64,000 bases of DNA. Origin: Fictibacillus solisalsi. GTDB taxonomy: Bacteria > Bacillota > Bacilli > Bacillales > Fictibacillaceae. Made by a program: the position numbers and the translations under genes. Below, one piece after another: positions 48,718-64,000 of this stretch. The notes under the pieces are model-generated. The model was not told the DNA's origin and searched no databases. It saw only the letters and a list, made by a program, of their open reading frames with translations. How positions within the stretch are numbered: position 1 is the stretch's first letter; each line of letters begins with the position of its first letter. The stretch lies in the NCBI RefSeq assembly GCF_900103485.1, contig NZ_FNHW01000001.1, positions 3,059,057-3,123,056 of the forward strand, written 5' to 3'.

Positions 48718-49713
48718 CTACGCCATAATCCCCATATCCTTCTCCAGCACCTCGCACTTGAGCGGTTCGTTCCTCAAATATCGCTGAAATTCATCCAGCA
48801 TGCTTTGTCCCATACGGGCACACTCCGGGCCTTTGCTGCCAGCAATATGCGGAGTCAGCACCACATTTGGAAGGGTAAATAGAGGTGATCCTGAAAGAGG
48901 CGGCTCAGGATGCGTCACATCCAAGACCGCAGTGATATCGCCGCGATTCATTAGCACTTCAATCATTTCATCCTCTCGTACGATCGCCCCGCGGGCTGTG
49001 TTTATAAAACTGGCGTTTGGTTTTAACAGGGAGAAATGCTGTCCCGTAATCATTCCGCGGGTTTCCTCCAATAACGGCGTATGAAGGGAAACGACGTCCG
49101 CCCGCTGAAATACCTCTTTCAGTGTACACAACTCCACACCCAGACTTCCGGCAGCCTCTTCGTTTACATATGGATCATAGGCAATGACCTTCACATCAAA
49201 AGGCTCAAGCAACTCACAAACCCGGCGGCCGATTTTACTCAGTGAGATGATTCCTACTGTGCTTCCAAACGCTCCTGCTCCGGCAGATGTTGATTTTCCG
49301 GGATAAGCCCGATCCCGCTGGATATTTCGGACATAGCTCCAGCCGTTTTTTAAGGAAAACAGAATTTGGGACAGTGCAAATTCCGTTACCGGGATGGCAT
49401 TCGCTTCAGCCGCATTGAAAATTCGGATGTTTCTTTTCCACGACGCCTGAGTGGCAATGTTTTTTACTGTTCCTGCCGCATAAAAAACAGCTTTCAGACG
49501 CGGTGCTGCCGCCAAAAACGCTTCGTCGAGCGCAGGCCCTCCCCATCCCGAAAAAACAACCTCAACATCCGTTAGAATGGATTTATTTTCCTTGACCTGG
49601 TCCTTAGTCAAAAAAGGAATATCCATACCAACCAGATCTTCAATTTGCTGCCGGATCGTTGACGGGTACACCCACTCAAAAGGCGCCTCATCCATAATAA
49701 ATAATCCTTTCAT
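48718..49713 (-). CDS. D-isomer-specific 2-hydroxyacid dehydrogenase
   Basis: 331 residues. The Rossmann NAD motif is STVGIISLSKIGRRVCELLEPF, with G-x-x-S-x-x-x-G spacing. Catalytic residues are Arg in FINTARGAIVRE, Glu in LDVTHPEPPLSG, and His in LTPHIAGSKGPE. It reduces or oxidises a 2-keto/2-hydroxy acid. It is the last gene of the 48.7-54.7 kb transport operon, so it could handle an aldonic or keto acid made from the imported sugar. Confidence 0.88.
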   Translation of the reverse strand: MKGLFIMDEAPFEWVYPSTIRQQIEDLVGMDIPFLTKDQVKENKSILTDVEVVFSGWGGPALDEAFLAAAPRLKAVFYAAGTVKNIATQASWKRNIRIFNAAEANAIPVTEFALSQILFSLKNGWSYVRNIQRDRAYPGKSTSAGAGAFGSTVGIISLSKIGRRVCELLEPFDVKVIAYDPYVNEEAAGSLGVELCTLKEVFQRADVVSLHTPLLEETRGMITGQHFSLLKPNASFINTARGAIVREDEMIEVLMNRGDITAVLDVTHPEPPLSGSPLFTLPNVVLTPHIAGSKGPECARMGQSMLDEFQRYLRNEPLKCEVLEKDMGIMA

Positions 49714-49734
49714 ACTGTCAGCTCTCCTTTCCCA

Positions 49735-50880
49735 TTAACTTTTCAATGCATGATCAATAGGAAAATCCAATCCGGACCATGCCTTTTTTGACGTCCAGCT
49801 TTCATCCTCATCACGCCAGAAGGAATTTGATTCCGGCAAGCCCAATGGCAAAAATATTAATGAGCAAAGATAGCCAGAGCCATTCGTAATGTAACCTTCA
49901 CCAATTCCCGGCTGACGGCCGCAAAATCCGACCGTTATCCAACCGTCATCTGTATACGTCCCGGGTGCATGCAGGCACTTTTCCAAAACGGCAGTCAATC
50001 CGCAGCGCACCTGGGCGGGCGTTACACTCTCCGGCAAATCCCCTCGCCATGCGTGCTGAGCCAGCGTATGAAAAACACCGCAACGGTAGGCAAGCGACCG
50101 GCCAACGGGTGGAAAGGTTCCTTCCGGCGAGATCAATCGTTCAAGGATTTCTGCATAGCGCCGCGACCTATCTTTAACTGTCTCTGCCCGTTCGTGCCAG
50201 TCATCATAATGAGAGCCAACCGCCTCCAAAACATCGAGCAGCATCGGCTGAATAACAAAGCTGTTATAATAATCAAAGCGAAAATGGGGACCGTCACTGT
50301 AGACGCCATCCCCCGCATACCATTGCTCCATCTGCTTGATGGCATAGTCAATCCGCATGGGATCCCAATCACTTTCACCCATCCGGTGCAAAGCCGCTTC
50401 AATCATCGCAGAAAACAGCAGCCAGTTGGAGAACACGGGTTTTCTTGAACGGGTCGCTTGTAAGGCAATGACAACGTTCCTTTTCGCTCGGCCATCCAGC
50501 TTCTCCCACAACTCGGTTGGTGCACGAACAATGGCCTGGGCCAAAAATGCAGTGTCCACAATCGGCTGAAAACCATGGGAAAAATTCATATAGTCAGGGG
50601 ATGCCGGGTCCGTTCCAGCGTCAATCGCCTCACGGGCCAGCTCGCAATAACGCTTTCGAAGATGTTCTTCCCTGCCCTCTGATTTTCCTTCAAGCCACGG
50701 CGCCATGCCGACAAGCAGCCGGGCCAGTGTTTCCAGATGAACATACGAATCTCTGTCTGCACCTTCTTTCATTTCCACCTGCATTTTTTCTTTGAGCTCT
50801 CTTTTAGCCAGCGCCTCAAGCGGAAGTCCAGCCAAAGTGAGCATGGTGTTGAGCCATAAGAGCCGCGTTGGATTATCCAT
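49735..50880 (-). CDS. DUF2264 protein (GH154-like)
   Basis: 381 residues with the alpha/alpha-barrel pattern of DUF2264: RLLVGMAPWLEG, YMNFSHGFQPIVDTAFLAQA, SNWLLFSAMIEAALH, YAGDGVYSDGPHFRFDYYNS and SPEGTFPPVGRSLAYRCG. It has no signal peptide and should be cytoplasmic. The family is placed, to my knowledge, in glycoside hydrolase family GH154, with beta-glucuronidase activity reported for a relative. In this operon it probably acts on the imported oligosaccharide. Confidence 0.82.
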   Translation of the reverse strand: MDNPTRLLWLNTMLTLAGLPLEALAKRELKEKMQVEMKEGADRDSYVHLETLARLLVGMAPWLEGKSEGREEHLRKRYCELAREAIDAGTDPASPDYMNFSHGFQPIVDTAFLAQAIVRAPTELWEKLDGRAKRNVVIALQATRSRKPVFSNWLLFSAMIEAALHRMGESDWDPMRIDYAIKQMEQWYAGDGVYSDGPHFRFDYYNSFVIQPMLLDVLEAVGSHYDDWHERAETVKDRSRRYAEILERLISPEGTFPPVGRSLAYRCGVFHTLAQHAWRGDLPESVTPAQVRCGLTAVLEKCLHAPGTYTDDGWITVGFCGRQPGIGEGYITNGSGYLCSLIFLPLGLPESNSFWRDEDESWTSKKAWSGLDFPIDHALKS

Positions 50881-51508
50881 TCAGCCCACCCGCCTTTGCT
50901 TTCCCTTCGAGCCTGAGAAACGCACAATGGGAGAACCACATGGAAAGAAAGCCTGCACCACTCAGATAAAAAAAGACAGAAAGCCCCGGAATGACATAGC
51001 AAATATATGTTACCACCAGGATACTCAGGCCGCTCAGCACGGTCATCAACGGTGAAGACAATCCGACAAACAAGGCATTCTTCACACAATCCATAAGTCC
51101 GCCTTTAAAATGGGCCAGCACCGGAAAGAGATAAAGCATGACGATGACATATAAAAAGAACAAACCAAGAAGCAAAACTTTCAGCCCACCAACCAAAAAA
51201 TAATCAACCGGAAACACCAGTTTTACATTTACCCACAGAAGCAGCCCGAACAGCACCATGAAATACCCCAGCAGGTTTGCTTTTACAAATTGAGTCCGAT
51301 ACTCTCTCCAAAACTGCCGGATAAGCGAAGGGCTTTCTTCCTTCCTGATCCAGGAACGCTCAACCGCAAAAAGCGCTGCGGTTGCCGGGAAAACACCGCC
51401 GATTATCAGTCCTGCCAGGCTGAAAAGGAGCCACAGAACACTTGAGAACGCGAACCGTGCAAACCACACACAGGCCATGTAAAAACCCCCAAAGGCCGTG
51501 CCATCCAT
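50873..51508 (-). CDS. DUF624 (YesL-like) membrane protein
   Basis: 211 residues, five hydrophobic helices, with GGVFPATAALFAVERSWIRKEE as the family signature. Its end overlaps the DUF2264 start by eight bases. AGGAGG lies eight bases before the ATG. Its location directly after an ABC importer repeats the arrangement at the left edge of the window. Confidence 0.82.
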   Translation of the reverse strand: MDGTAFGGFYMACVWFARFAFSSVLWLLFSLAGLIIGGVFPATAALFAVERSWIRKEESPSLIRQFWREYRTQFVKANLLGYFMVLFGLLLWVNVKLVFPVDYFLVGGLKVLLLGLFFLYVIVMLYLFPVLAHFKGGLMDCVKNALFVGLSSPLMTVLSGLSILVVTYICYVIPGLSVFFYLSGAGFLSMWFSHCAFLRLEGKAKAGGLNG

Positions 51509-51558
51509 CCAACATCCCTCCTATGCAAAGAAAGGAGGATTTCTCCTCCTCCTTCGGC

Positions 51559-52914
51559 TTACTTTCTATTTTTCACCCAGGCGGTGCTCTCTCTTTGCGC
51601 TTTTTCCAGCGCCTGTTCCGCAGTACGCTTGCCGGTCAAGGCAGCTTCCACCTCTGACGTCAAGGTAAAGCGCGGCTGTGAGGAGCCCCAAGGATAGCGT
51701 GGTGTCCATGGGCTGCTCATCGCTTCAAACACCGGCTGCATGAGCGGCATTTTTTTTGTACTCTTCCAGGTTTTTGCGGCTTTAATGGCCGGAATGGCAC
51801 CAACTTCTTCAAAGACGTACTTTTGCGCAAATTCATCGGTCGCAAATTTAATCCATTCCCAGGCCAGGTCTTTATTTTTGCTGCTCTTGGCAATCGCAAG
51901 CGGACTTCCTGCAAACAACCCGCCTTTTCCATCCTTGTTCTTGAATTCCTGCGCGATTCCAATCCGGTCTTCTAACCCTTGTGCATAGGTCGGTTTGATG
52001 GTATCGCCAGGTCCCTGGTTCATCATGATGGCAACGTTGTTATCCTTGGTCAACCACTTTTCCTGGCCCTGGTTGCTGACAAGGCCTTTTGGCGCGTAAT
52101 TCTTCATGTCGAGCAGCCAGTCCAGCCCTTTTTTCATCTCCGGAGAGTTAAAATTGAACTTCACGTCTTTCCAGGCGAATCCTTCTCCCCATTTACCGTT
52201 TTGACCTTCAGCCAGATCGATCAGGGTGAAGGCGGAGGACCAGTCACCGCGGAACCAGATACCATAATTCTGCTTTCCGGTTTTCGGGTTTTTCCCAGTC
52301 ATTTGTTTCGCTTTTTCCGCAACCTCCTTCATGGTCGGGTGGTCGGAAAGGTATTCAACACCCCAGTCGTCAAACAGCTTTTTGTCATACGCGATAAAAC
52401 GTGCGTCTCCCAAAAACGGAAGACCGTAGATTTGCAGTTTGTCGTCATCCTTGCCAAGCACCTTCCAGCCATCCACTTGACTGTCGATAAACTTGTCCAG
52501 ATCCATTTCTTTGTCTTTATCGATGTACGGCTGAAGAGGTTCAAGCACACCCTGTGGCGCGAAATCGGCAAGTCCGGGCATCTGATACACATCGGCTTCA
52601 TTGGAGGTGATCATCGCCTGTGTTTTTTCCGTGTATCCTTCCCAGGGCATCAGAATGAAATCCACGGTTGCACCGGGATGCTGCTTTTCAAATTCCTCTT
52701 TTAATACGTCAATCCCTTTCACTTTCTTTCCCGTGATCGGATCAGTTGCCGTTTTATCCTTGAAATCCCCGATCATCTGCACCTTGATCTTTTTCCCTGC
52801 CCACTTTCCATCCGCTTTTCCTGAAGTATCCGAGGTTGAACAGCCAGCCAGCATGGCCACCACAGCCAGAATTAAAATGAGCGATAACGAAATCCCTTTC
52901 CGAACATGTTTCAT
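51559..52914 (-). CDS. Carbohydrate ABC transporter substrate-binding lipoprotein
   Basis: 451 residues. The signal peptide has lipobox VAMLAGC, giving a lipoprotein at about Cys25. The mature part has a DPITGKKVKGIDVLKEEFEK segment, then WEGYTEKTQAMI and a Trp-rich region LVSNQGQEKWLTKDNN. It delivers a sugar to the two permeases encoded just upstream (52939-54734). No ATPase gene is present, pointing to a shared MsmX-type ATPase. Confidence 0.9.
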   Translation of the reverse strand: MKHVRKGISLSLILILAVVAMLAGCSTSDTSGKADGKWAGKKIKVQMIGDFKDKTATDPITGKKVKGIDVLKEEFEKQHPGATVDFILMPWEGYTEKTQAMITSNEADVYQMPGLADFAPQGVLEPLQPYIDKDKEMDLDKFIDSQVDGWKVLGKDDDKLQIYGLPFLGDARFIAYDKKLFDDWGVEYLSDHPTMKEVAEKAKQMTGKNPKTGKQNYGIWFRGDWSSAFTLIDLAEGQNGKWGEGFAWKDVKFNFNSPEMKKGLDWLLDMKNYAPKGLVSNQGQEKWLTKDNNVAIMMNQGPGDTIKPTYAQGLEDRIGIAQEFKNKDGKGGLFAGSPLAIAKSSKNKDLAWEWIKFATDEFAQKYVFEEVGAIPAIKAAKTWKSTKKMPLMQPVFEAMSSPWTPRYPWGSSQPRFTLTSEVEAALTGKRTAEQALEKAQRESTAWVKNRK

Positions 52915-52938
52915 TTCTTCGCCTCCTTTAAAATGGTC

Positions 52939-53793
52939 CTACTCTCCTTTTACACCGCTAAGCGCAATGCTCTGAATGATGTACTTTTGCAAAAACAGAT
53001 ATAAAATGACGATCGGCAGAACACTCATGGTTGCCAGTGCCATCGTTAATCCGCCAAGGCTTGTCCCGTTTTCAAGCGAGAAGCTGGCGAGGTAAAGAGG
53101 AACCGTCTGAAGCTCTTTGTCGTTCAGCACAACGAGCGGCCACATGAAGTCGTTCCAGCTCCAGATAAAGGCCAAAATGATCATCGTTGCCACAATCGGT
53201 CCGGCAAGAGGAAGATAAATGCGGAAAAAGGTTGTAAATTCCCCTGCGCCGTCAATTTGCGAGGCCTCCCTGAGCGTGTCGGGAAGCTGGTCAAAGAACT
53301 GCTTGCAAAGAAAGATCAGCATGCCGCTGATCAGTGACGGCAGAACGAGCGGCCAAAACGTATTAAGCAGATGGACTGAATTAAACAGCTTATACAACGG
53401 AATCAGGCGCGGCTCCATCGGGATCATGAGCGTGCAAAGGACGACCACAAACAAAACCTTTTTTCCTTTGAACCGGCCTTTGGAAAATGCGTATCCTGCC
53501 AAAAGTGATGCCGATACACCGATAAAGACAGAACTGACGGTAACGATCGCAGAGTTGAGGTAAGCCTTGATCAGGCTTCCGTTTTCAAACACGATGCCGA
53601 AGTTAAACGATGATAGGTGCTTTGGTATTAGTTTGGGCGGAAAGGGCATCGTGACATTGGCGGTGCGGTCAAATCCCACGCTCACCATCCAGACAAAGGG
53701 CGTAATGAGCAGCAGACCAAACAGCAGCAAAATAACGAAGTTGAAGCCTCCTGCAATCTGTTCTCTCTTTTTATAAGAAAGTCCAGCTTTCAT
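52939..53793 (-). CDS. Carbohydrate ABC transporter permease, MalG type
   Basis: 284 residues from the chosen ATG (MKAGLSYKK), which has AAAGGGGG nine bases upstream; an ATG three codons earlier would overlap that site. Six helices, EAA loop REASQIDGAGEFTTFFRIYLP and C terminus IIQSIALSGVKGE. It is paired with the MalF-type permease, whose gene ends 20 bases upstream. Confidence 0.9.
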   Translation of the reverse strand: MKAGLSYKKREQIAGGFNFVILLLFGLLLITPFVWMVSVGFDRTANVTMPFPPKLIPKHLSSFNFGIVFENGSLIKAYLNSAIVTVSSVFIGVSASLLAGYAFSKGRFKGKKVLFVVVLCTLMIPMEPRLIPLYKLFNSVHLLNTFWPLVLPSLISGMLIFLCKQFFDQLPDTLREASQIDGAGEFTTFFRIYLPLAGPIVATMIILAFIWSWNDFMWPLVVLNDKELQTVPLYLASFSLENGTSLGGLTMALATMSVLPIVILYLFLQKYIIQSIALSGVKGE

Positions 53794-53813
53794 GAAACAC
53801 ATCCCCCTTTCGC

Positions 53814-54734
53814 TTAAATTTTCATTTTGGAAACTTTCAGGTTAATAAATGTGAAGACCAGTATCAGAATAAACATAATATACGTCGCGGCCGAAGCGAT
53901 TCCAAACTCAAACCCTGTAAAGCCCCGTTCGTAAATAAACGCTCCCATCGTTTGAATCGACCGTGCCGGACTTCCGTTTGGTCCCCCAAGCACATAGACT
54001 TCGTTAAATCGCTGCAGCGCTCCAATCCATCCGGTAATCAGCAAAAAGGCAAAGGTTCCTGCCATATTGGGAATGGTGATAAAAAACCATTGCTGAAGTC
54101 CGCTTGCTCCGTCGATTTTTGCGGCTTCGTACATTTCGCTCGGAATCGCCTGGAGATTGGCAAGACAGATGATAATGACAAAACCAATCCAGTGCCAGAC
54201 GGCAAGAATAATGACCGCCCACTTTGAGGTGGAAGGATCAGATAGCCAGCCTGGTGCCGGCAGCCCGATGGCATGAAGAACATAGTTGACGATCCCCATT
54301 TCCGGATGAAGCACGAAAGCAAAAATCATGGCAGCGGCAACGATAGACGTAACATTAGGCAGGAAATAGAGCACTTTGAAAAAATTCTGGCCCCGTTTGG
54401 TAGAGTTAATAATCGATGCAAAGATAAAACCAAGCGGAATGGTAATAATGATTTGAAAGATGCCGATAAAAAAGGTATTCCATACGGCGTTCCAGAACGA
54501 GTTCGAGGATAAAACAGACTTAAAGTTTGCGAGTCCGATAAAATGCTCGACTGTTCCGTTGGATTGATAGAAACTGAGGCGCAGGGATTCAAAGATGGGG
54601 TAGACCATGAACAGCAGGATCCCTAAGAAACTCGGAATCAGGAAAACATACCATTTCAGCCCCCAGTCCTTCCGTTTGTTGCGCACCTTTTCCACTTCCA
54701 TTTGGACGTTCAGCTCAATGCTGTTGTTAGCCAT
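53814..54734 (-). CDS. Carbohydrate ABC transporter permease, MalF type
   Basis: 306 residues. EAA loop YEAAKIDGASGLQQWFFITIP and six to seven helices. It is the first gene of the transport operon, preceded by a 160-base gap with a cre-like site. The AGGAGG site upstream is clear (GCCTCCTTT on plus). Confidence 0.9.
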   Translation of the reverse strand: MANNSIELNVQMEVEKVRNKRKDWGLKWYVFLIPSFLGILLFMVYPIFESLRLSFYQSNGTVEHFIGLANFKSVLSSNSFWNAVWNTFFIGIFQIIITIPLGFIFASIINSTKRGQNFFKVLYFLPNVTSIVAAAMIFAFVLHPEMGIVNYVLHAIGLPAPGWLSDPSTSKWAVIILAVWHWIGFVIIICLANLQAIPSEMYEAAKIDGASGLQQWFFITIPNMAGTFAFLLITGWIGALQRFNEVYVLGGPNGSPARSIQTMGAFIYERGFTGFEFGIASAATYIMFILILVFTFINLKVSKMKI

Positions 54735-54782
54735 GACAGCCTCCTTTCAATTGGCGGGACAATCAAATGGTTTTGTCTGGAT

Positions 54783-54799
54783 AATAAAACGCTTTCATT
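54783..54799 (-). promoter_or_regulatory. Probable cre (CcpA) site before the ABC operon
   Basis: Minus strand reads ATGAAAGCGTTTTATTA. It matches the cre core except at the CA positions. It lies 49 bases before the permease start, consistent with carbon repression of sugar uptake. Confidence 0.5.
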
Positions 54800-54894
54800 T
54801 ATCTGGTTTAATTTTACTAATTTTCGGATAATTTAAAGGTTACAGGATGGTCTTTTTTCTTGAAAAATTTGTCTGATCTTGCTCTATTTTTGTT

Positions 54895-55791
54895 CTAATA
54901 GTTTCCAATCTGGTCTAACGTTTCACTTATGGTACGCTCGTTGCGGTAGGCAGTCGGTGTAATCTTGACTTGTTTGCGGAAAAAGCGGCTAAAATGCGAG
55001 GAATTTTCAAATCCGGATTCCAATGCCACCTCCAGGATCGACATTTCAGGATGCATTTCGAGCAAATACTTGGCCCGTTTGATGCGGCAGCTCATCAGAT
55101 ATTCCATGATGGTAAAGCCGGTTACGCATTTAAAGATTCTGGACATATAATATTTGCTGATATTCAGGCTCTTGGCAATATCGTCCAGTTTGATGTTCTT
55201 TTCGCGGTTGTCTTCCACCCATCGGATGATGCGGTCGACGTGCATGCTTTTTTCCGACTTGACGGAGGGAATTTTGACGATCCTCAACTTGCTTAATTCA
55301 TAGATTTTAAACAGCAGCTGCACGAGAAGGGTGGTTACCTCACCTTCCTTCAGCCGGTTTTCAAACTTGTCCTCCTGCTTGTATCCTTTTGAAAAACCGA
55401 CCTGTGCTATTTTCTTGATCAGCTCTTCAATTTCAAGCAGCATATCCTGGTCCACCCCTCGGAACAAGCAATTGTTCAGCATATAAAAAGGGTTTAACAG
55501 CTCGGGTACCTTTAAATTGGCAAGCACAGGCTTCAGCCACTCTCCGGAAAACTGGATCACACTCCGGATATAAGGCTGATCTTCTTCAGGATAAGGCCGG
55601 TGCAGTGTCAAACCATCCATAATGATAATGTCGTTTTCCTGCAGGTGATGGATTTCATCGCCGATCAAGTACTTGCATCTTCCGCTGTGAAAGAAATACA
55701 CTTCGTACGTATCATGGGAATGAAAATCATAGTCCTCTTTCTTGATCTCTTTGGACATCCGGTATTCAGAAACAAAGAATTCTTCCTCCAA
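54895..55791 (-). CDS. AraC-family regulator of the glycoside cluster
   Basis: 298 residues if translation begins at the TTG that has AAGGGGGAG six bases upstream; an in-frame GTG six codons earlier has no ribosome site. N-terminal cupin sensor (DYDFHSHDTYEVYFFHSG, LQENDIIIMDGLTLHRP). Two C-terminal HTH motifs: IKLDDIAKSLNISKYYMSRIFK and MSILEVALESGFENSSHFSRFF. It sits between the enzyme genes and the importer genes, and should control one or both. Confidence 0.88.
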   Translation of the reverse strand: MEEEFFVSEYRMSKEIKKEDYDFHSHDTYEVYFFHSGRCKYLIGDEIHHLQENDIIIMDGLTLHRPYPEEDQPYIRSVIQFSGEWLKPVLANLKVPELLNPFYMLNNCLFRGVDQDMLLEIEELIKKIAQVGFSKGYKQEDKFENRLKEGEVTTLLVQLLFKIYELSKLRIVKIPSVKSEKSMHVDRIIRWVEDNREKNIKLDDIAKSLNISKYYMSRIFKCVTGFTIMEYLMSCRIKRAKYLLEMHPEMSILEVALESGFENSSHFSRFFRKQVKITPTAYRNERTISETLDQIGNY

Positions 55792-55833
55792 TTTTTTCTC
55801 CCCCTTCACGAATTAAACGAACGGCCTGACTGA

Positions 55834-56607
55834 CTATACTTTCCGGGAGTAAAGAACCGATGATAAAAATTGCCTTGCTGCACCTGCTTCTGCTTCAAAG
55901 TCCTGCCACTGGCATTCGATGGAGACCCGCCCGTTGTACCCCGCCTCGCCCAGGCAGGAAACAAACCTTTCGTAAGGATAGGTCCCCGTACCCGGTGCCC
56001 GCCTTCCGCTATCAGCCACATGAATATGGCGGATATAGTCTTTTTCGGAAACAAGGTGCTGGAGCGGTTCATTTTCTTCATCCATATGATAAAAATCGGC
56101 CAGCACCTGGATTGATGGACGATTTACCTTCTTGGCGATGGCTACAGCTTCGGGGACCGAGTTAATGATATTGCTTTCCTTTCGATTCAGCGGCTCGATG
56201 ACAATCGTCAGGCCAAGAGGATCACTGTAATTTGCCACAAGATCAAGGAACCGAACAACCTGCTCCTCTCCCTTTTCCCTGGAAAATCCCTCCGGCAATG
56301 ACCTTGCGCCTCCACTTCCAAACACGACTGTATCGGCTCCGATTTGTTTCACGCGAAGAAGGGCTTTTTCAACATAGCGTTCAACCGATGAGATGTTCAC
56401 GTGTTCACCGGTGATTTTAAGTGATCCCGGCAAAAAGATATTGCATGCCTCTACCGGAAGTTCGCTTTCCTGGTAGCTTTCAAGGATCGCGGGAAAATCA
56501 TCATCATGTTCCGGGACGAGGGATACCACCGTACATTCGAGAAAATCAAAACCGGCTTTTTTTACAATGACGGAGTTATCGATGGTCGTACAGCAGCCAA
56601 GCTTCAT
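55834..56607 (-). CDS. TIM-barrel sugar isomerase/epimerase-like protein (1)
   Basis: 257 residues from the ATG reading MKLGCCTTIDN; AAGGAGG just upstream overlaps the stop of the preceding gene, so an earlier in-frame ATG is unlikely. Predicted metal ligands are Glu in LTIVIEPLNRKES, Asp/His in VLADFYHMDEENE, His in RHIHVADSGRR and Glu in VSIECQWQDFE. This xylose-isomerase-like superfamily includes epimerases and also the lyase/hydratase partners of 3-keto-glycoside pathways. Confidence 0.88.
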   Translation of the reverse strand: MKLGCCTTIDNSVIVKKAGFDFLECTVVSLVPEHDDDFPAILESYQESELPVEACNIFLPGSLKITGEHVNISSVERYVEKALLRVKQIGADTVVFGSGGARSLPEGFSREKGEEQVVRFLDLVANYSDPLGLTIVIEPLNRKESNIINSVPEAVAIAKKVNRPSIQVLADFYHMDEENEPLQHLVSEKDYIRHIHVADSGRRAPGTGTYPYERFVSCLGEAGYNGRVSIECQWQDFEAEAGAARQFLSSVLYSRKV

Positions 56608-56620
56608 TCCCTTCTCCTCC

Positions 56621-57487
56621 TTATACAGCCAGTGTTTCATTCAACAGTTTTTTCAGCGACTGAACATGATGCTTCAGGGATTCCTTCGTCGACAGCGCCT
56701 GGCTGAAGTCCTCGATGCCAATATACCCGTCATAGCCAACCGCTTTTAAGTCCCCGATCACCTGCTTCCAGTCCACAATTCCCTTTTCCAGCAAAGCCCA
56801 TTGGGCTTTCCACTGTACACTCCCGTCCTCTGCCTGTTCGCTTTGTTTCCAGATGGCATTTTTCGCATGAACGTGAGCGAGGTAAGGTCCGAGAAGCTCC
56901 ATTCCCATCCGGCAGTTTTCAAATCCCTCATGCACCATGTTGCCCGGATCGTATAGTACACCGATATGGTCGGGGTTAAAGGAAGAAACCAAACGATGGG
57001 CCAGGCCGGCGCTAGGAGCAATTGTCTGGTGATGTGTCTCCACCAGTCCCTTAACGCCGTATTGCCTGCACATTTCCTCAGCTTCCTTTAAATAGGCTAC
57101 CGCTTCCTTATATAAATCATTGTAGTTTCGGCTTCGGTCATACCTGGGAACACCAAGGCGTACCTTTGAGGCACCTAGTGATTGGGCCACCCGCAGCACA
57201 TTTTCCGTTGCCGCCAAATCCCCACATGAAAGGTAAGGCGTCACACTCGTCACTTCAATACCGTTTTCTTCCGTTACAGCCGACAAATGCCTAATCTCTT
57301 CATCGGTGATATCTGGTGTGATGGTGCACAGGTTATTGCCCCAAAAGCTCGGCTCTTCCTTTTTCAGTTCCTGAGGCGTTTCTTTAAACCGCCATTCCAC
57401 TCCTTCGTATCCATACTCCTTCAGATAGCCTAGTAACTGCTCAGGTGTTGCGTCCGGTGCCATTACAGTAAACACAGAAAACTTCAT
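56621..57487 (-). CDS. TIM-barrel sugar isomerase/epimerase-like protein (2)
   Basis: 288 residues. N terminus MKFSVFTVMAPDATPEQLLG. Metal-site segments are KGLVETHHQTIAPS, VLYDPGNMVHEG, LAHVHAKNAIW and GYIGIEDFSQA. The DPGNMVHEG motif separates it from its neighbour at 55834, so they are not recent duplicates. It follows a Gfo/Idh gene on the same transcript with a 30-base gap. Confidence 0.88.
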   Translation of the reverse strand: MKFSVFTVMAPDATPEQLLGYLKEYGYEGVEWRFKETPQELKKEEPSFWGNNLCTITPDITDEEIRHLSAVTEENGIEVTSVTPYLSCGDLAATENVLRVAQSLGASKVRLGVPRYDRSRNYNDLYKEAVAYLKEAEEMCRQYGVKGLVETHHQTIAPSAGLAHRLVSSFNPDHIGVLYDPGNMVHEGFENCRMGMELLGPYLAHVHAKNAIWKQSEQAEDGSVQWKAQWALLEKGIVDWKQVIGDLKAVGYDGYIGIEDFSQALSTKESLKHHVQSLKKLLNETLAV

Positions 57488-57517
57488 GTTTTCAGCCCGC
57501 CCATCTTTGAATTTTTT

Positions 57518-58591
57518 CTATTCCACTCTGATTGCGTTCTCCTGGGCAATCAGGCACAATTCCGCAGCTTTAAAGGCATGTTCCTGGGTCATCGCTTTTT
57601 CCGTGCGGTTCAAGCAGTCCAGGATCAGCTGGCCAAAAAATGGAAAGCCGACTTTGCCTGTGAGATGAAAGTGCTGTTCGCCTTCACCATTTACCAAATA
57701 CAGGTGATCCCCGCTGTCTTCACTCGCCACATTGATATATTTGCGGATTTCAATATAGCCTTCCGTTCCAAGGATAAACGTTCTGCCGTCTCCCCATGTG
57801 CGGAGTCCGTCCGGCGTCAGCCAGTCGACCCGAAAGTATTGGGTTGCCCCGTTATCGCTGACAAGCGTGGCGTCACCGTAGTCCTCGAGCTCAGGGTAAT
57901 CCTTGCTGCTGTAGTTCGCAACCTTGCTTGAGAGAACCTTGGCATCCTTTGACCTTGTATAAAAAAGAAACTGCTCGATCTGATGGCTGCCGATATCACA
58001 AAGAATCCCGCCATACGTTTCCTTTTTAAAAAACCAGTCCGGTCTGGAGGACGCTGACAATCGGTGGGGGCCAAATCCTGTCACTTGGATCACCCTCCCG
58101 ATCGCGCCCTCATCGATGAGCTGCCCGGCAAACACTGCCGATTCCACATGCAGCCTCTCGCTGTAATACACCATGTACTTTTGTCCGGTTTCTGCAGCCT
58201 TTTGCCTCGCCTGCTCCAGCTGTTCCAGCGTGGTAAAGGGGGTTTTGTCTGTAAAATAGTCCTTTTGGCGGTCCATCACCCGCAAGCCCAGTTCACAACG
58301 CTTGGAGGGGATTGCCGCACCGGCCACAAGTTTTACGTCCGGATCATTCAGCACTTCTTCCTCGGAGGAAGCAACCCGGACCTCAGGAAAAGCATTCTTG
58401 AACTGATCGGTTTTTGCCGGATCGGGATCATACACCCATTTAAGGGTGGCGCCGGCTTCGATCAACCCATTGCACATGCCGTAAATATGGCCATGATCCA
58501 GAGCGACCGCTGCGATGACAAAGTCACCCTCTGCCACCACCCGGTTTGGTTTTCCTTTTGGGGCATAGTTCATACCGTCTTGTTTGCTCAT
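57518..58591 (-). CDS. Gfo/Idh/MocA-family oxidoreductase (a), atypical catalytic motif
   Basis: 357 residues with a longer N terminus (NRVVAEGDFVIAAVALDHGH replaces the usual GxGxxG loop). The usual EKP motif is FTDKTPFTTLEQ here, so the lysine is kept but Glu and Pro are changed. A substrate domain follows, with GGILCDIGSHQIEQFLFYT. The absence of a classical glycine loop raises the question of how it holds NAD(P). It may be a specialised member or bind the cofactor tightly. Confidence 0.85.
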   Translation of the reverse strand: MSKQDGMNYAPKGKPNRVVAEGDFVIAAVALDHGHIYGMCNGLIEAGATLKWVYDPDPAKTDQFKNAFPEVRVASSEEEVLNDPDVKLVAGAAIPSKRCELGLRVMDRQKDYFTDKTPFTTLEQLEQARQKAAETGQKYMVYYSERLHVESAVFAGQLIDEGAIGRVIQVTGFGPHRLSASSRPDWFFKKETYGGILCDIGSHQIEQFLFYTRSKDAKVLSSKVANYSSKDYPELEDYGDATLVSDNGATQYFRVDWLTPDGLRTWGDGRTFILGTEGYIEIRKYINVASEDSGDHLYLVNGEGEQHFHLTGKVGFPFFGQLILDCLNRTEKAMTQEHAFKAAELCLIAQENAIRVE

Positions 58592-58606
58592 GTGTCCGCT
58601 CCTTTA

Positions 58607-59767
58607 TCAGTACGTGCCGCCAACATCCAGCACAACGCTGTTTTTATCTTTTTTCACGTTGGATTGTGCCGCTTTTTCCTCCAAGTGTTTCAGATAGAGA
58701 TCCTCATTTACCGGGAACTCCACCCAGTCATCCAGCCATGTGGAAAGATGCATGGCATTGGACAGCTCAAGCCCCTTGATTCCTTCGACCCCCGGTGCAA
58801 TAAGCGGAGTTCCCTTCAGGATGGCGTCCACAAAGTTCTGGGTGATGCCGCGGTGTGCTGTTTCCTTGCCTTCAATCGGCACCTGGACCTTCCAGCATTC
58901 CGGAGCTCCGAAGCCGCCTTTGTATTCACGGTTAAACTCCGGCTCGGAAACACGCAGCCTCCAGAAATCAAGCTTTCCATTCTCAACGACCACCTTCCCC
59001 CGGCTCCCGGCAATCTCCAGCCGGTTCGTTCCCGGGGCTTCTCCTGTCGTCGTAACAAAGACAGCGGTCGCACCATTGTCATACTCGGCAAAGGCGGTGA
59101 CATCGTCCTCCACTTCGATCTCCCTGTGTTTGCCAAAATAACAAAACGCACGCATGCGCCTGGGCATCATTCCGGTCATCCATTGCCACAGATCGAGCTG
59201 GTGCGGACACTGATTGATCAGCACACCACCGCCTTCTCCCTCCCATGTGGCTCTCCAGCCGCCTGAATCGTAATAGCTTTGCGACCGGTACCAGTTGGTG
59301 ATCAGCCAGTTCACGCGGCGGATTTCTCCAAGTTCTCCCGTTTGGATGAGGTTCCGGAGCTTCTGGTACAGCGGATTGGTTCGCTGGTTGTACATCATGG
59401 AAAACACTTTTCCGCTTCGTTCAGCGGCTTCGTTCATTTCACGGACCTGTTTGGTGTACACGCCTGCCGGCTTTTCACAGAGCACATGCAGCCCATGGTC
59501 AAATGCTTTGATGGCGAGTGGGGAGTGAAAGTAGTGGGGCGTTGCGATCAGCACCGCATCGACCAGACCGGACTCGAAGAATGAATCCTCGCCGGTGAAT
59601 ATCTGTACGTTGCTTCCCAGTTCTTTTCTTAGTGCCTCAGCCCGTTCTTCGTTCGAATCGAGGACGGCGGTAAGAATGGCTCCGTTGATTTCTCCGTTTA
59701 GAAGATAGCGCGCGTGCGCTCCCCCCATGTTTCCCGCGCCAATGATTCCAAGCCTTACGTTTTCCAT
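58607..59767 (-). CDS. Gfo/Idh/MocA-family oxidoreductase (b)
   Basis: 386 residues. Rossmann motif LGIIGAGNMGGAHARYL, catalytic motif LCEKPAGV, and substrate-domain segments GWRATWEGEGGGVLINQCPHQLDL. The GGVLINQCPHQLDL histidine region is common in glycoside C3-dehydrogenases of this superfamily. It ends 16 bases before gene (a). Confidence 0.9.
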   Translation of the reverse strand: MENVRLGIIGAGNMGGAHARYLLNGEINGAILTAVLDSNEERAEALRKELGSNVQIFTGEDSFFESGLVDAVLIATPHYFHSPLAIKAFDHGLHVLCEKPAGVYTKQVREMNEAAERSGKVFSMMYNQRTNPLYQKLRNLIQTGELGEIRRVNWLITNWYRSQSYYDSGGWRATWEGEGGGVLINQCPHQLDLWQWMTGMMPRRMRAFCYFGKHREIEVEDDVTAFAEYDNGATAVFVTTTGEAPGTNRLEIAGSRGKVVVENGKLDFWRLRVSEPEFNREYKGGFGAPECWKVQVPIEGKETAHRGITQNFVDAILKGTPLIAPGVEGIKGLELSNAMHLSTWLDDWVEFPVNEDLYLKHLEEKAAQSNVKKDKNSVVLDVGGTY

Positions 59768-59854
59768 TTGTCGCAGCCTCCTTGTGGTCTTTATGTTATG
59801 GCTATCGTTGTTCTTGTAAGTGTTGATTTCCGTTCCAGGCCGCTTCCTTTTACC

Positions 59855-59928
59855 GGCGTAAACGCCTACTTTCGGAGGGCGGGCGCAAGCGCCTTCTGGG
59901 TCTTACTGTCCTGCTTGCTACAAGCAAG
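59855..59928. repeat. Three-hairpin REP-like element inside the operon
   Basis: Three short hairpins in a row: GGCG-TAAA-CGCC (59855-59866), GGCG-CAAG-CGCC (59882-59893) and CTTGC-TACAA-GCAAG (59914-59928). They occupy most of the 166-base gap between two Gfo/Idh genes and are GC-rich compared with other gaps in the window. This looks like an intergenic repeat of the REP kind, but I see no second copy in the window. Confidence 0.5.
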
Positions 59929-59933
59929 TATCC

Positions 59934-60989
59934 TCAGCCGGACAAGAGTGTGTTTTTCTTAGTCTCTTGCAGGTCAACCGCTTTTCCTGTTTTGGAAGAT
60001 TCGTAGATTGCCAGAATGACTTGGATAGCAGCGCGGCCGGCTTCGAGTGAGACATAGGGTGCAGAGTCCGTTTCAATGGCCTGGATGAAGTCGGTGACGA
60101 TGGTCTTGTGGCCTTCGCCGTAAACCGAGTCCGGAAGGTTGCTTTGATCGGAAACGATCTTGGCTTCCTCCTCGTGAAAAGAGGTGGAGAAACGCCACTT
60201 TTCAATCTGGTTGGCCGCGTTACCACCAATGCAGACGGTACCGCTTTCTCCGAACAGATTCAGACTCGCTCCGAGATCGGCGGGATAAATGGCGCCTGTT
60301 CCTTCTACCACGCCGATGGATCCATTCTGGAATTCAAGAATAGCAGCACCAACATCTTCCATTTCAATATCCACGGTGCGTGTTGCCGTTTTTCCCATTA
60401 CGCTTTTTACAGGTCCCATCAGCCAAATCAGCAGGTCAATGGTATGGATGCACTGGTTCATCAAAACGCCGTCCTTCATAGCGGCCGTTCCACGCCAGGG
60501 ATCCTGATTGTAATATTCCTGGCCCCGACGCCAGCGGATATTTGCCGTACCATAGGCCATTTTTCCGAACTTGCCTTGCTCCAGAGCCTTTCTTGTCGTT
60601 TGTACCGCTTCATTAAACCGGTTTTGGTGAACAACGGTCGCTTTGACATGGTGTCTTTTAGCCGTCTCGATGATCCGGTCCGCATCACTAACCGATAATG
60701 CCATCGGTTTTTCGATCATGACATGCTTGCCCTTTTCCATCGCTTTGATGGCCATTTCCGCGTGGAGGGCGTTTGGTGTGCAAATATTGACCACATCGAG
60801 ATCGGGATCATTGATTATTGCTGTGAAGTCAGTAAAGGCGGACTCCGCTCCATATTTTTGTGCAAAAGGATAAAGACGTTCCTCGCTGGTATCACAAACG
60901 GCAAGAAGCTTAGCTCCTTGCGCTTTTTGAATCGCTTCCGCATGAACGGCCGCTACCCTTCCGCATCCTGCAATCGCAAAATTGACCAT
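59934..60989 (-). CDS. Gfo/Idh/MocA-family oxidoreductase (c)
   Basis: 351 residues. Rossmann motif FAIAGCGRVAAVHAEAI, catalytic motif MIEKPMAL, and the segment RGTAAMKDGVLMNQCIHTIDL. It is related to gene (b) in the DGVLMNQC-H region but differs in its dinucleotide loop. It lies between the TIM gene at 61005 and the hairpin element. A reductase or dehydrogenase on a keto sugar is the likely role. Confidence 0.9.
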   Translation of the reverse strand: MVNFAIAGCGRVAAVHAEAIQKAQGAKLLAVCDTSEERLYPFAQKYGAESAFTDFTAIINDPDLDVVNICTPNALHAEMAIKAMEKGKHVMIEKPMALSVSDADRIIETAKRHHVKATVVHQNRFNEAVQTTRKALEQGKFGKMAYGTANIRWRRGQEYYNQDPWRGTAAMKDGVLMNQCIHTIDLLIWLMGPVKSVMGKTATRTVDIEMEDVGAAILEFQNGSIGVVEGTGAIYPADLGASLNLFGESGTVCIGGNAANQIEKWRFSTSFHEEEAKIVSDQSNLPDSVYGEGHKTIVTDFIQAIETDSAPYVSLEAGRAAIQVILAIYESSKTGKAVDLQETKKNTLLSG

Positions 60990-61004
60990 AGCTTCCTCCC
61001 GATG

Positions 61005-61853
61005 TCAGAATTTCATGGTTGGACCAGAGGAGACCTGCTGTTCCAACTGCTTCATAAAATGGGCATATTGCTTAAACGCGATTTCTGGCTCTTCAATTTC
61101 AGGGCACCAGACCTTCTCCCATTCCAGCGTAAAGTACCCCACGTAGCCTTGATCCTTCAGCAAACGATACATCCGGTAAAGCGGGATATCTCCCTCACCA
61201 AGCAGACAAAGCTGGTACCCTCTCTTGTGCTCTTTTTTATTATAGGAATCCTTCCAATGGGTGTACCTGATCCGGTTCCCGAGTACATTCCAGGTTTGCT
61301 CGGGTTCCTCCCCAATCGTCCGGTACGGATGGTGGACATCCCATAGAACCTCCAGCTGAGGAGAATTCACCCGGCTGAGCAGCTCCCAAACCGCCCGGCA
61401 ACTCGTCCAGTCATCGTGTGTTTCGAGCAGCAGAGTGACGGGCCGACCTTCGATGACCTTCAAATACTCTGCCGTATTCCGAGTGGCAATGGCTGCCGCT
61501 TCCTCTCTATCACGTTCCCCAATCGAGCCTCCGAACACTCGGATAAAAGGAGTTTGAAAGTACTCACAGAGATCGGCATACTGTTCCAACTCTGCAAGGT
61601 ACTCCCCACGTTGCTCCGTTGATTCGGTAAATAAACGAACCGAACTGGAAAAGCAGGGAATCTCAAGTGTTGCTTCCCTGAACCTGCCCCTTGTTTCTTC
61701 CAGCTTTGTCGAAAACTCAGGCAAACGGTAGATTTCCATTTGCCCCAGATACCCGCGAAAGTCGATTCCCTTATAACCGTACTTAACGGCACGGGAAATC
61801 ATCGTCTCCAGGCTCCAGTCCGGGCATCCAAGCGTGGTAAACGCCAATTTCAT
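61005..61853 (-). CDS. TIM-barrel sugar isomerase/epimerase-like protein (3)
   Basis: 282 residues. N terminus MKLAFTTLGCPDWSLETMIS. Metal-site segments are TLLLETHDDWTSC, EVLWDVHHPYRT, IRYTHWKDSY and YFTLEWEKVW. The WDVHHPYRTIGE motif is seen in a distinct branch of the superfamily. It is 15 bases before oxidoreductase (c), implying one transcript. Confidence 0.88.
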   Translation of the reverse strand: MKLAFTTLGCPDWSLETMISRAVKYGYKGIDFRGYLGQMEIYRLPEFSTKLEETRGRFREATLEIPCFSSSVRLFTESTEQRGEYLAELEQYADLCEYFQTPFIRVFGGSIGERDREEAAAIATRNTAEYLKVIEGRPVTLLLETHDDWTSCRAVWELLSRVNSPQLEVLWDVHHPYRTIGEEPEQTWNVLGNRIRYTHWKDSYNKKEHKRGYQLCLLGEGDIPLYRMYRLLKDQGYVGYFTLEWEKVWCPEIEEPEIAFKQYAHFMKQLEQQVSSGPTMKF

Positions 61854-61978
61854 GAAATCACTCCCTGTATCGATTCTCCTTCCTCTTATGATAAAAGGCC
61901 GGGAATCAGTATGCTTTGTTCATGTTGCTTCATTTACCGGGATTGATGACAGATGTTGCTATAAATTGTTGAAAAGAG

Positions 61979-62800
61979 TTAAACGTGGTCGGCAAATGCC
62001 TTTTTGATCAATGCGAGGTTTTCATCACCAGGCATCTCCCACAGTTCCTTGTTCATGATTTCAACCTCAATCGGCCCGTGGTAGCCGTTCTGTTCGACCG
62101 CCTTACGGATTCGCGGGATATCAATTACTCCTTCTCCCATCAATGAACGGCCCATGAACAGATCGGTAATCGGCACCTTCCAGTCGGAAACATGAAATCC
62201 AAGAATGTTCCCGCGGGCACGGTCGATTTCTTCATATAAATATGGATCCCACCAGACATGGAAAACATCCACAATTACGCCAACCTGATCTGATCCGATT
62301 CTTCTTTTCAGGTCGTTCGCCTCAGCAAGTGTAGTGATCACCGACCGGTCCGCCGCAAACATTGGGTGCAGAGGCTCGATGCCAAGTTTTACTCCATGCT
62401 GCTGTGCAAACGGCAGGATCGCTTCTATTCCTTCCTGCACCCATTTGCGGCTTTCTGAAAGATCTTTATGAGGAGAAGGACCGCAAACGAGGACAAGCAC
62501 CTCAGTCCCGAGCTCTGCCGCTTCTACAACTGCCCGTTTGTTGTCTTCAAGCCGTTCACCACGTTCTGATTTCGACAGGGCAGGAAACATCCCGCCCCTG
62601 CATACACTGGACACGTTCAGGCCGGATTCCCGGATCAACCGACTGCTTTCCTTCAAACCGATATCAGCGATTTTGTGCCGCCACACTGAAATCGTTTCAA
62701 TCTCTTGCATCTGGCACCCTTCAATCGCCTCAGGCAATGACCAGTTTTCCGTCGTGATCTGGTTTAAGCTGAGCCTTTTTACATCCACACTTCCGCTCAT
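61979..62800 (-). CDS. TIM-barrel sugar isomerase/epimerase-like protein (4)
   Basis: 273 residues. Metal-site segments are VKLGIEPLHPMF, VGVIVDVFHVWWDPYL, GFHVSDWKVPITD and GPIEVEIMNKE. The ATG overlaps the stop of the DUF993 gene by four bases (ATGA), with GGAGG seven bases upstream. A 125-base gap separates it from the next gene, with no clear terminator. Confidence 0.88.
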   Translation of the reverse strand: MSGSVDVKRLSLNQITTENWSLPEAIEGCQMQEIETISVWRHKIADIGLKESSRLIRESGLNVSSVCRGGMFPALSKSERGERLEDNKRAVVEAAELGTEVLVLVCGPSPHKDLSESRKWVQEGIEAILPFAQQHGVKLGIEPLHPMFAADRSVITTLAEANDLKRRIGSDQVGVIVDVFHVWWDPYLYEEIDRARGNILGFHVSDWKVPITDLFMGRSLMGEGVIDIPRIRKAVEQNGYHGPIEVEIMNKELWEMPGDENLALIKKAFADHV

Positions 62801-63969
62801 TTGACCGCCTCCATCTGATGAACACCGGCCAGTTCAAGCACGGGCTTCATTCGTTCGATGGCGAGCTCCGGATCAGCGAGCACGTTTGCCTGGTCTGCGA
62901 GCTGGAACACTTGAGAGAGATGCAGAATGGAACGCGCACTTTCCGCACCAGCCACCATTCGGAAATGAGGCTGATGTCCATTTAGATAAGCCAGGAACAC
63001 AATGCCGGTTTTGTAACAGTACGTCGGTTCTTGGAAAATATGACGGGAAAGGGGTACGGTGGCATTCATCTTCTTTCGGTAGCCCGCCAGGTTTCCACGG
63101 TCCAAATCCCCCAGAGCGGAGGAAGCAACAGCCGCAATTCCGTCAAAAATACCAAGCAGCGCGTGACTATAGCCAACATCGTCTCCTTCAATCAGAGAGG
63201 GATAATTAAAATCATCACCCGTATACATTTTCACCGCAGCTGGCAGCAGCCGGCGCATTTTGATTTCCTTTTGGTCATCAAGCAATGAGATCTTGATTCC
63301 GTCAATTTTATTTTCATAGTTTCGGATGATCTTCAGGCAATTTTCCATCGCGCCATCGAGATCGTTTGATCCCCAGTAGCCGGCAAGCTTCGGATCAAAC
63401 ATATCTCCCAGCCAGTGGAGGATGACCGGCTTTGAAACCTGGTTCAGGATTCTTCCGTACACATATTCATAGTCTTCAGGAGACCGGGCAGAGGAAGCAA
63501 GCGCGCGGCTGGCCATGAGAATCACCTTGCTCCCCGCCTGTTCAATATGAGCAACCTGTTCCTCGTACGCTTCACAAATCGCTTCAAGCGAAAAGTGCTC
63601 ACCATCACGAAGATGATCGGTCCCGGCGCCACAGGCAATCCCTCCGCCAACCGCCTTTGCCTCTTTTACAGAGCGGGAGATGAGTTCCTTTGCGTCTTCC
63701 CACGCAAGGCCCATGCCGCGCTGCGCGGTATCCATGGCTTCCGCCACCGACAAGCCAAGCGACCATAAATGGCGCCGATAGTGCAGGGTCAGCTCCCAGT
63801 CGATACCATCCTTTTTCCCTTGTGAAAAAGGATTAGCCACCACATGGGCTGCAGCATACGCAGTTCGGGAATGAAATGGGTTTGGCGCCTGCTTTGTCAG
63901 TGGTTCATGATTTGTAAGATGATAGTGGAACGCGGTGCCATCAGGTGCTGGAAGATAAATAGCGCTCAT
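62797..63969 (-). CDS. DUF993, dihydrodipicolinate-synthase-like aldolase
   Basis: 390 residues. The fold is a class I aldolase-type TIM barrel: GGGIACGAGTDHLRDGEHFS near residue 110 and the probable Schiff-base lysine in IDGIKISLLDDQKE (about residue 225). The C-terminal segment FQEPTYCYKTGIVFLAYLNGH is typical of DUF993. No reaction is established for this family. GGGAGGG lies upstream of the ATG. A retro-aldol step on a keto-sugar fragment would suit the cluster, but that is inference. Confidence 0.85.
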   Translation of the reverse strand: MSAIYLPAPDGTAFHYHLTNHEPLTKQAPNPFHSRTAYAAAHVVANPFSQGKKDGIDWELTLHYRRHLWSLGLSVAEAMDTAQRGMGLAWEDAKELISRSVKEAKAVGGGIACGAGTDHLRDGEHFSLEAICEAYEEQVAHIEQAGSKVILMASRALASSARSPEDYEYVYGRILNQVSKPVILHWLGDMFDPKLAGYWGSNDLDGAMENCLKIIRNYENKIDGIKISLLDDQKEIKMRRLLPAAVKMYTGDDFNYPSLIEGDDVGYSHALLGIFDGIAAVASSALGDLDRGNLAGYRKKMNATVPLSRHIFQEPTYCYKTGIVFLAYLNGHQPHFRMVAGAESARSILHLSQVFQLADQANVLADPELAIERMKPVLELAGVHQMEAVK

Positions 63970-64000
63970 CCTTCACCCTCCCTGCTGTGGTCAATTCCGG
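63966..64000 (-). CDS. Possible 3' end of an upstream gene
   Basis: One minus-strand frame reads GIDHSREGEG and ends at a TGA that overlaps the DUF993 ATG (ATGA). That is the same coupling seen one gene further down, so the operon probably continues beyond the window. Too short to identify. Confidence 0.35.
   Translation of the reverse strand, partial: GIDHSREGEG

Follow-up and report, generated by a model that had tools for sequence, protein, structure and literature searches.

A two-module Fictibacillus operon that may dismantle sugar-acid glycosides by an oxidative route

The window analysed here, a 64,000-nucleotide stretch of the Fictibacillus solisalsi genome (assembly GCF_900103485.1, contig NZ_FNHW01000001.1, positions 3,059,057 to 3,123,056), ends in 15 open genes, all on the minus strand. 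They span positions 48718-63969 and encode three oxidoreductases of the Gfo/Idh family, four TIM-barrel proteins of the AP_endonuc_2 family (Pfam), a DUF993 protein, a CUT1 importer and a DUF2264 protein. An original prediction, made from the letters alone, had described at least 15 consecutive minus-strand genes with short gaps or overlaps, and gene calls combined with a Pfam scan bear this out, with spacings of -20 to +166 bp. The window edge cuts the operon. The next gene past DUF993, gfoZ, encodes a fourth Gfo/Idh protein of 397 amino acids, so the predicted three are right for the window and one too few for the operon; an AraC gene precedes gfoZ, outside the window. A long run of co-directional genes is in itself nothing unusual in such genomes, and operon membership is assigned from gene spacing only, which suggests co-transcription. 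In pattern scans the numbers of promoter-like (17 matches, 13.9 expected) and terminator-like sites (11 matches, 19.1 expected) were unremarkable, and there was no signal of catabolite-repression (cre) sites, with 43 matches in the window (37.1 expected) and, for a stricter pattern in the locus record that continues past the window edge (L003), 8 matches (6.7 expected). Between gfoA and gfoB lies the widest gap of the operon, 166 bp (59768-59933), in which two short G+C-rich hairpin-like stretches can be seen by eye.

The Gfo proteins of the operon are about 20-29% identical to one another and the TIM-barrel proteins about 19-23%, over the pairs reported by BLAST (3 of the 6 TIM-barrel pairs), so that "divergent", as they had been called, is the correct description. 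The putative metal-site residues, described as intact, are indeed kept in all aligned orthologues of the four TIM-barrel proteins: 77 of 77 rows for timA, 4 for timB, 14 for timC and 4 for timD, the protein's own sequence being counted in each case. The locus consists of two modules. Module 1 is the trio gfoZ-DUF993-timA, and module 2 comprises gfoA, gfoB and gfoC, timB, timC and timD, the ATP-binding cassette (ABC) importer, DUF2264 and dh2.

In the trio, DUF993 (62797-63969; Pfam 596 bits, E 2.7e-179) stands between gfoZ, whose 3' end occupies 63941-64000 (stop codon TGA at 63943-63941, start near 65134 beyond the window, L003:1191), and timA (61979-62800), an isomerase- or dehydratase-like TIM-barrel protein. 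The gfoZ and DUF993 genes overlap by 29 bp. When an AlphaFold2 model of DUF993 (pLDDT 88.3) was compared with solved structures by Foldseek, the top match was 4dnh (TMq 0.94), followed by structures of dihydrodipicolinate synthase (DHDPS) and N-acetylneuraminate lyase (NAL); among these barrels, 7loy matched at E 4.4e-10 (TMt 0.84) and the NAL 5c54 at 2.1e-9. The Pfam scan gave no DHDPS match for DUF993 at E<=1e-3. Lys226, invariant in 29 of 29 aligned rows, sits within strand 222-227 and, in the model, lies in the Schiff-base strand (end of strand 6), the equivalence being drawn by strand order. On this model DUF993 is probably a Schiff-base aldolase or lyase.

The other two members also have solved relatives. 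The gfoZ protein matches 3oqb at 6e-158, and timA matches 7vpf (1e-108), 3ju2 (SMc04130; 7e-70) and 3qc0 (1e-69). Together with 4dnh (SMc04132), these structures are directly homologous to the trio proteins, and they bear generic labels only (uncharacterized, oxidoreductase, sugar isomerase, xylose isomerase), with no pathway named. The terms DUF993 and DUF2264 were not found in the open-licence literature searched. SMc04132, SMc04133, SMc04135, SMc04138 and SMc04139 share one table of a PhaR study (PMC12542648), and the passages of PMC12542648 and PMC11387232 that deal with the S. meliloti locus give no function for the trio. The trio is the most novel part of the locus; its families have solved structures, and no pathway assignment was found for them.

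The distribution of the trio was read from 80 DUF993 loci, with gfoZ relatives counted at >=38% identity. These are the best-scoring of at least 593 confirmed relatives in named genomes, so that the sample favours close relatives, and 20 of them are shorter than 18 kb, which makes the counts of flanking genes lower bounds. In 64 of the 80 loci the three genes lie side by side with the same orientation, a count that leaves out L064 and L044, in which the open reading frame of DUF993 and of gfoZ, respectively, was not picked. By phyla taken by hand from the sequence records, the 64 comprise 43 Bacillota, 10 Alphaproteobacteria, 5 Gemmatimonadota, 3 Chloroflexota, 2 Acidobacteriota and 1 not placed, a spread that puts the cassette in five phyla. 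Half of the 16 non-adjacent loci hold all three genes, which the gap rule classes as spaced, overlapping or apart (L015, L033, L037, L041, L059, L077, L081, L085); L059, where they are spaced, belongs to the Deinococcota. Overall, gfoZ relatives occur in 73 and timA relatives in 74 of the 80 loci, and a regulator of the araC2 type in 41. The closest named relative found is that of Fictibacillus enclensis (L006), with a DUF993 90% identical. Neither gfoZ nor timA was found in six of the 80 loci (L014, L056, L062, L065, L066, L076), L065 being only 4 kb long. The seven loci without a gfoZ match include three of Rokubacteria (L056, L066, L076) and two of Chloroflexota (L062, L065), from which it follows that DUF993 occurs also outside the cassette. 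The trio is a widespread cassette with an aldolase-fold member, for which no assigned pathway was found.

A variant locus of Psychrobacillus (L014:7725-18486), in which neither timA nor gfoZ was found, combines DUF993 with another Gfo/Idh gene, an acyl-CoA dehydrogenase, an enoyl-CoA hydratase, a TRAP importer and a LacI regulator. In loci of Bradyrhizobium and Microvirga, an ABC ATPase and gfoZ flank a protein of 467 amino acids (L080:7401-8804) that has no Pfam/NCBIfam match at E<=1e-5; its protein cluster has members in seven Alphaproteobacterial loci.

The flanks of the trio suggest that the substrate is acidic and that the product is a C3 acid. TRAP importers, which typically carry acids, occur in 13 of the 80 loci and CUT1-like permeases in 14, and in Bradyrhizobium loci the importer is SsuABC-like, its binding protein and permease being encoded in L074 and its ATPase in L080. 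A glycerate kinase is the next gene after timA in two loci, and one is also present in the own genome. Relatives of dh2, a gene of the present operon, were found at >=100 bits in four loci and DUF2264 in three. A scan covered 100 of 122 chosen open reading frames flanking the trio, and ten of these were further Gfo/Idh genes and eight TIM-barrel genes. The same scan gave two GMC oxidoreductases and two genes of the DHDPS family; GMC enzymes reportedly include glycoside 3-oxidases.

In module 2, the nearest solved relative of gfoB (58607-59767) is 8tdi, the "Glucuronide-3-dehydrogenase" of P2B11, which matches residues 1-365 of 386 with 332 bits (E 4e-98) and shares with gfoB the stretches NQRTN, WRATW, GEGGGVL and PHQLDL; the best inositol dehydrogenase, 3cea, reaches 85 bits. 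By this homology gfoB is a probable glucuronide 3-dehydrogenase, and the predicted C3 oxidation by a Gfo/Idh enzyme gains support. The gfoA protein (59934-60989), a candidate 3-dehydrogenase or 3-keto reductase, matches 3q2k (7e-68) and 3q2i (2e-66), both labelled as oxidoreductase or dehydrogenase, and DgpA (8e-34). We take 3q2k and 3q2i to be WlbA, an enzyme whose substrate, a UDP-linked uronic acid, is oxidised at C3. The putative partner oxidoreductase gfoC (57518-58591) matches 2p2s (3e-118) and 3u3x (8e-92), labelled simply as oxidoreductases; it has an atypical N-terminus, [LM]-[DE]-H-G-H, and the lysine of its K-x-P-F motif is conserved in all 24 rows. Gfo/Idh genes cluster in a 78-kb stretch of contig C4 of the own genome (3049577-3127871): the IolG model has 17 genomic matches at E<=1e-30, and 6 of them, including gfoA and gfoB, fall within it.

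The residues of the 3-keto-glycoside eliminases, which comprise C-glycoside deglycosidases (CGD) and OGE, are given in the relevant passages of PMC8563793 as E147, H149, D179, H269, K271, E305 and E307 (AgCGD2 numbering), and AtOGE is described in a passage of PMC10628242 as having H-x-H where CGD has H-x-K. With residues assigned by motif order, timB (61005-61853) has the full published set of the CGD alpha subunits (E-T-H / D / H-x-K / E-W-E, 4 of 4 rows), and timC (56621-57487) has this set minus the second glutamate (E-x-H / D / H-x-K / E-D, 14 of 14 rows). These sets lend support to the predicted elimination and hydration by TIM-barrel enzymes. The best PDB match of timB is AsbF (8.5e-8), and timC shows weak similarity to IolE (37 bits) and 3tva; timC is a probable 3-keto-uronide eliminase or hydratase. 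The set of timD (55834-56640), E-P-L-N / D..H / H-V-A-D-[ST]-G-R / E, is kept in 4 of 4 rows, and its PDB matches, TM_0416 (3e-21), ketose 3-epimerases and the 3-keto-D-glucoside 4-epimerase 6wn6 (6e-15), make it a probable keto-sugar epimerase. No CGD beta subunit was labelled among the 15 Pfam-scanned operon proteins, a scan that used no beta-subunit model.

The DUF2264 protein (49735-50880; Pfam 377 bits) belongs to GH154. Its AlphaFold2 model (pLDDT 89.3) matches 8oi4 (TMq 0.92, 42% identity) and the beta-D-glucuronate dehydratases 9o4u and 9nwf (39-40% identity), the matches to 8oi4 and 9o4u having TMq 0.90-0.92 and E values of 6.5e-29 to 2.6e-27. According to PMC12269599, GH154 has been re-described as beta-D-glucuronate dehydratases (BcGDH, BT_3677), uronate dehydration is proposed for the whole family, the beta-galactosidase-type activities are disputed, and alanine mutants of ten BcGDH residues lost activity. 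Nine of these ten match in DUF2264 (E50, R54, N152, W153, F156, Y204, R261, Y265 and Y330), where they are invariant in 12 rows, and N176 of BcGDH is S151; the residues were mapped by spacing, BcGDH standing outside the alignment. DUF2264 is probably a dehydratase and not the hydrolase that was predicted to trim the glycoside, a role dropped on the strength of PMC12269599. The same source states that GH154 dehydratases are often found with a GH88/GH105 unsaturated uronyl hydrolase. No GH88/GH105 gene (PF07470) was found in any of the seven genomes of the genus, the own included, against 3 of 14 in the control rings. Matches were present in all four other DUF2264-bearing genomes tested, of seven such genomes known: a weak GH88-like match lies about 3 kb or less from DUF2264 in G072, G028 and G111 (22-86 bits, that of G111 below cut-off), and in G732 a match with an internal stop (56 bits) lies about 11 kb away.

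The remaining genes of the operon would serve uptake, control and the final steps. The importer consists of a solute-binding protein (51559-52914; SBP_bac_1 111 bits) and permeases of the UgpE/MalG (52939-53802) and UgpA/MalF types (53814-54734; both BPD_transp_1 by Pfam), with a DUF624 membrane protein (50873-51508; Pfam 86 bits, weak MusI_fam 44 bits) as a putative accessory. An AraC-family regulator (HTH_18, AraC_binding) is encoded at 54895-55809. The last gene, dh2 (48718-49713), encodes a D-2-hydroxyacid dehydrogenase (Pfam 2-Hacid_dh; 2-Hacid_dh_C 160.8 bits), whose best NCBIfam models, PGDH (168 bits) and glyoxylate reductase (126 bits), both stay under cut-off; it likely reduces a small 2-oxo acid of the glyoxylate or hydroxypyruvate type.

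Upstream of the window lies a second sugar locus (L003:2849-11060, about 66792-75003 in window numbering), read mostly by eye, with a PhzF-like gene, two Gfo/Idh genes, CUT1 permeases and binding protein, a LacI-like regulator and a TIM-barrel gene that shares with AtOGE an H-N-H motif. Five genes of this second locus have relatives (95-100% identity) beside the trio in F. enclensis (L006); the TIM-barrel gene was not seen there.

By combining these data, it is possible to outline a route by which the operon might import and oxidatively dismantle sugar-acid glycosides of the beta-glucuronide type, its two modules probably being under AraC control. As a whole this outline is tentative, and its chances fall somewhat short of even; that keto-glycoside chemistry takes place at the locus is likely, and sugar-acid glycosides are more likely substrates than neutral ones. 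The keto-glycoside catabolism of the original prediction is in this way retained in its oxidation and elimination chemistry and altered in its substrate. The importer of module 2 would take up the glycoside, and gfoB, judged by 8tdi, would oxidise C3 of the terminal uronide. TimC, timB or both might then release the aglycone by elimination across C1-C2 and add water back to the enone, as their residue sets suggest; timD may epimerise the keto sugar, with gfoA and gfoC possibly returning the reducing equivalents. DUF2264, from the published activity of its family and its matching residues, would dehydrate C4-C5 of a terminal saturated uronyl residue. Since the search of the genome yielded no GH88/GH105 gene, splitting of the uronide, once dehydrated or oxidised, would fall to the Gfo/TIM enzymes or to another enzyme.

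Module 1, which looks like a downstream splitting route for a sugar acid, would finish the process: gfoZ might perform a redox step and timA an isomerisation or dehydration, after which DUF993 might cleave a C-C bond with Lys226 as the Schiff base, and dh2 and the glycerate kinase would drain the small oxo acid. A more specific version, which we regard as doubtful, is a hydrolase-free beta-glucuronide route in which the DUF2264 dehydratase and the Gfo/TIM enzymes replace GH88/GH105, and a non-phosphorylated trio pathway with a new Schiff-base aldolase branch ends at glycerate.

Several observations weigh against the sugar-acid outline. The function of 8tdi is taken from its PDB label alone, and gfoB belongs to a broad subfamily, which makes the transfer of substrate uncertain. 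The closest solved relative of DUF2264, 8oi4, is labelled beta-galactosidase, and outside the DUF993 set DUF2264 stands beside gfoB in only 1 of 20 neighbourhoods. CUT1 importers often carry neutral oligosaccharides, CUT1-like permeases are as frequent beside DUF993 as TRAP importers, and the trio neighbours include GH42, GH35, GH20 and GH95-like genes, which are neutral-sugar hydrolases. UxaC is encoded about 85 kb from the operon, so that glucuronate could be burned without the trio. Finally, DHDPS enzymes bind pyruvate with a carboxylate motif, G-T-T-G-E, and the tyrosine of Y-N-x-P. These motifs are not visible in DUF993, which by strand order has DTAQRG and HWLG (in HWLGDMFDP) at the corresponding strands; for this reason a pyruvate aldolase of the 2-keto-3-deoxygluconate type is kept only as possible.

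The two modules might also be unrelated pathways set end to end, the trio acting on a small sugar acid of its own and module 2 on a different glycoside, with the neighbourhood and perhaps the regulation shared. We consider this possible, if on the unlikely side. The original prediction had drawn one linear pathway from import to splitting; in the neighbourhoods read, the trio appears as an autonomous cassette, separable from module 2, and need not form a single pathway with it. Relatives of module 2 are rare in the 80 DUF993 loci (gfoB at >=350 bits in 4, timC in 4, timD in 3, gfoA in 3), the trio stands with differing importers across loci, and within the operon a second AraC gene is set off from the importer by a gap of 160 bp. 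Of the 398 genomes of the class, 56, the own included, have a gfoB match at E<=1e-75. In 20 neighbourhoods of up to 20 kb, hand-picked from these matches outside the DUF993 set, gfoC occurs 16 times, a TIM-barrel gene 16 times and both 15 times, and neither gfoZ nor DUF993 was found in any; timC is linked to gfoB in other genomes, and in one neighbourhood (L142) DUF2264-timC-gfoC-gfoB-gfoA-permeases recurs without the trio. Against a chance union, the four DUF993 loci that share both modules belong to three genera (Fictibacillus L006, Aquibacillus L009 and L021, Halalkalibacter L017). In L007, L008, L018 and L043, moreover, the trio is accompanied by gfoC without gfoB.

A route for neutral glycosides comparable to those for levoglucosan (Lgd) or for C-/O-glucosides (Dgp, OGE), with C3 oxidation, elimination, hydration and reduction to glucose, would use identical enzyme classes; the full CGD alpha set of timB and the matches of gfoA to DgpA and of timD to the 3-keto-D-glucoside 4-epimerase agree with it. 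We nevertheless judge it improbable. Both gfoB and DUF2264 have as their best relatives enzymes that act on uronides or members of a family since re-described in that sense, and a neutral route leaves DUF993 and DUF2264 without a role. With the LevoglcsnDh model (NCBIfam cut-off 650 bits), gfoA scores 114, gfoB 71, gfoC 37 and gfoZ 59 bits, and membership of the operon Gfo proteins in the levoglucosan dehydrogenases (LgdA) was ruled out on these scores. A cyclitol pathway, with inositol dehydrogenases and TIM-barrels of the IolE, IolI or IolO kind, had been raised by the original prediction against itself and is very improbable. The top NCBIfam matches of timD and timC are IolO (108.6 bits) and IolE (37 bits), and gfoA has 159 bits with IolG; all stay under the curated cut-offs (300, 290 and 355 bits). 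A true IolE (396.7 bits) is encoded on another contig, C10. About 1.6 kb from it lies an IolG-like gene (196.5 bits, under cut-off), and no Gfo protein of the operon exceeds 29% identity to this gene over the BLAST-aligned parts. On these cut-offs and this IolE the inositol pathway was rejected, in a comparison of scores and not by a phylogeny of characterised references.

If the more specific, hydrolase-free version is true, the trio would be a widespread route for sugar acids that current maps lack. To read the three genes as a single cassette next to a module that oxidises uronides points to a concrete substrate class; if this is right, a uronate dehydratase would also be at work here without its usual hydrolase partner.

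Compared with known systems, DUF993 shares with the DHDPS/NAL (class I aldolase) superfamily the fold and the lysine of the Schiff-base strand, and differs from it by HWLGDMFDP and DTAQRG at the places of the pyruvate motifs. DUF2264 shares with the GH154 dehydratases the fold and nine of the ten residues, and differs in its Gfo/TIM neighbours and in having no GH88/GH105 match in its genome. The oxidation by Gfo/Idh proteins and the elimination by a metal-dependent TIM-barrel enzyme are shared with the known pathways of C3 oxidation and beta-elimination, namely levoglucosan degradation (LgdA-B1-B2-C), DgpA-C with CGD, and AtOGE. To these the present operon adds a probable DUF2264 dehydratase, the gfoZ-DUF993-timA trio, a total of four Gfo/Idh proteins and relatives of the uronide type.

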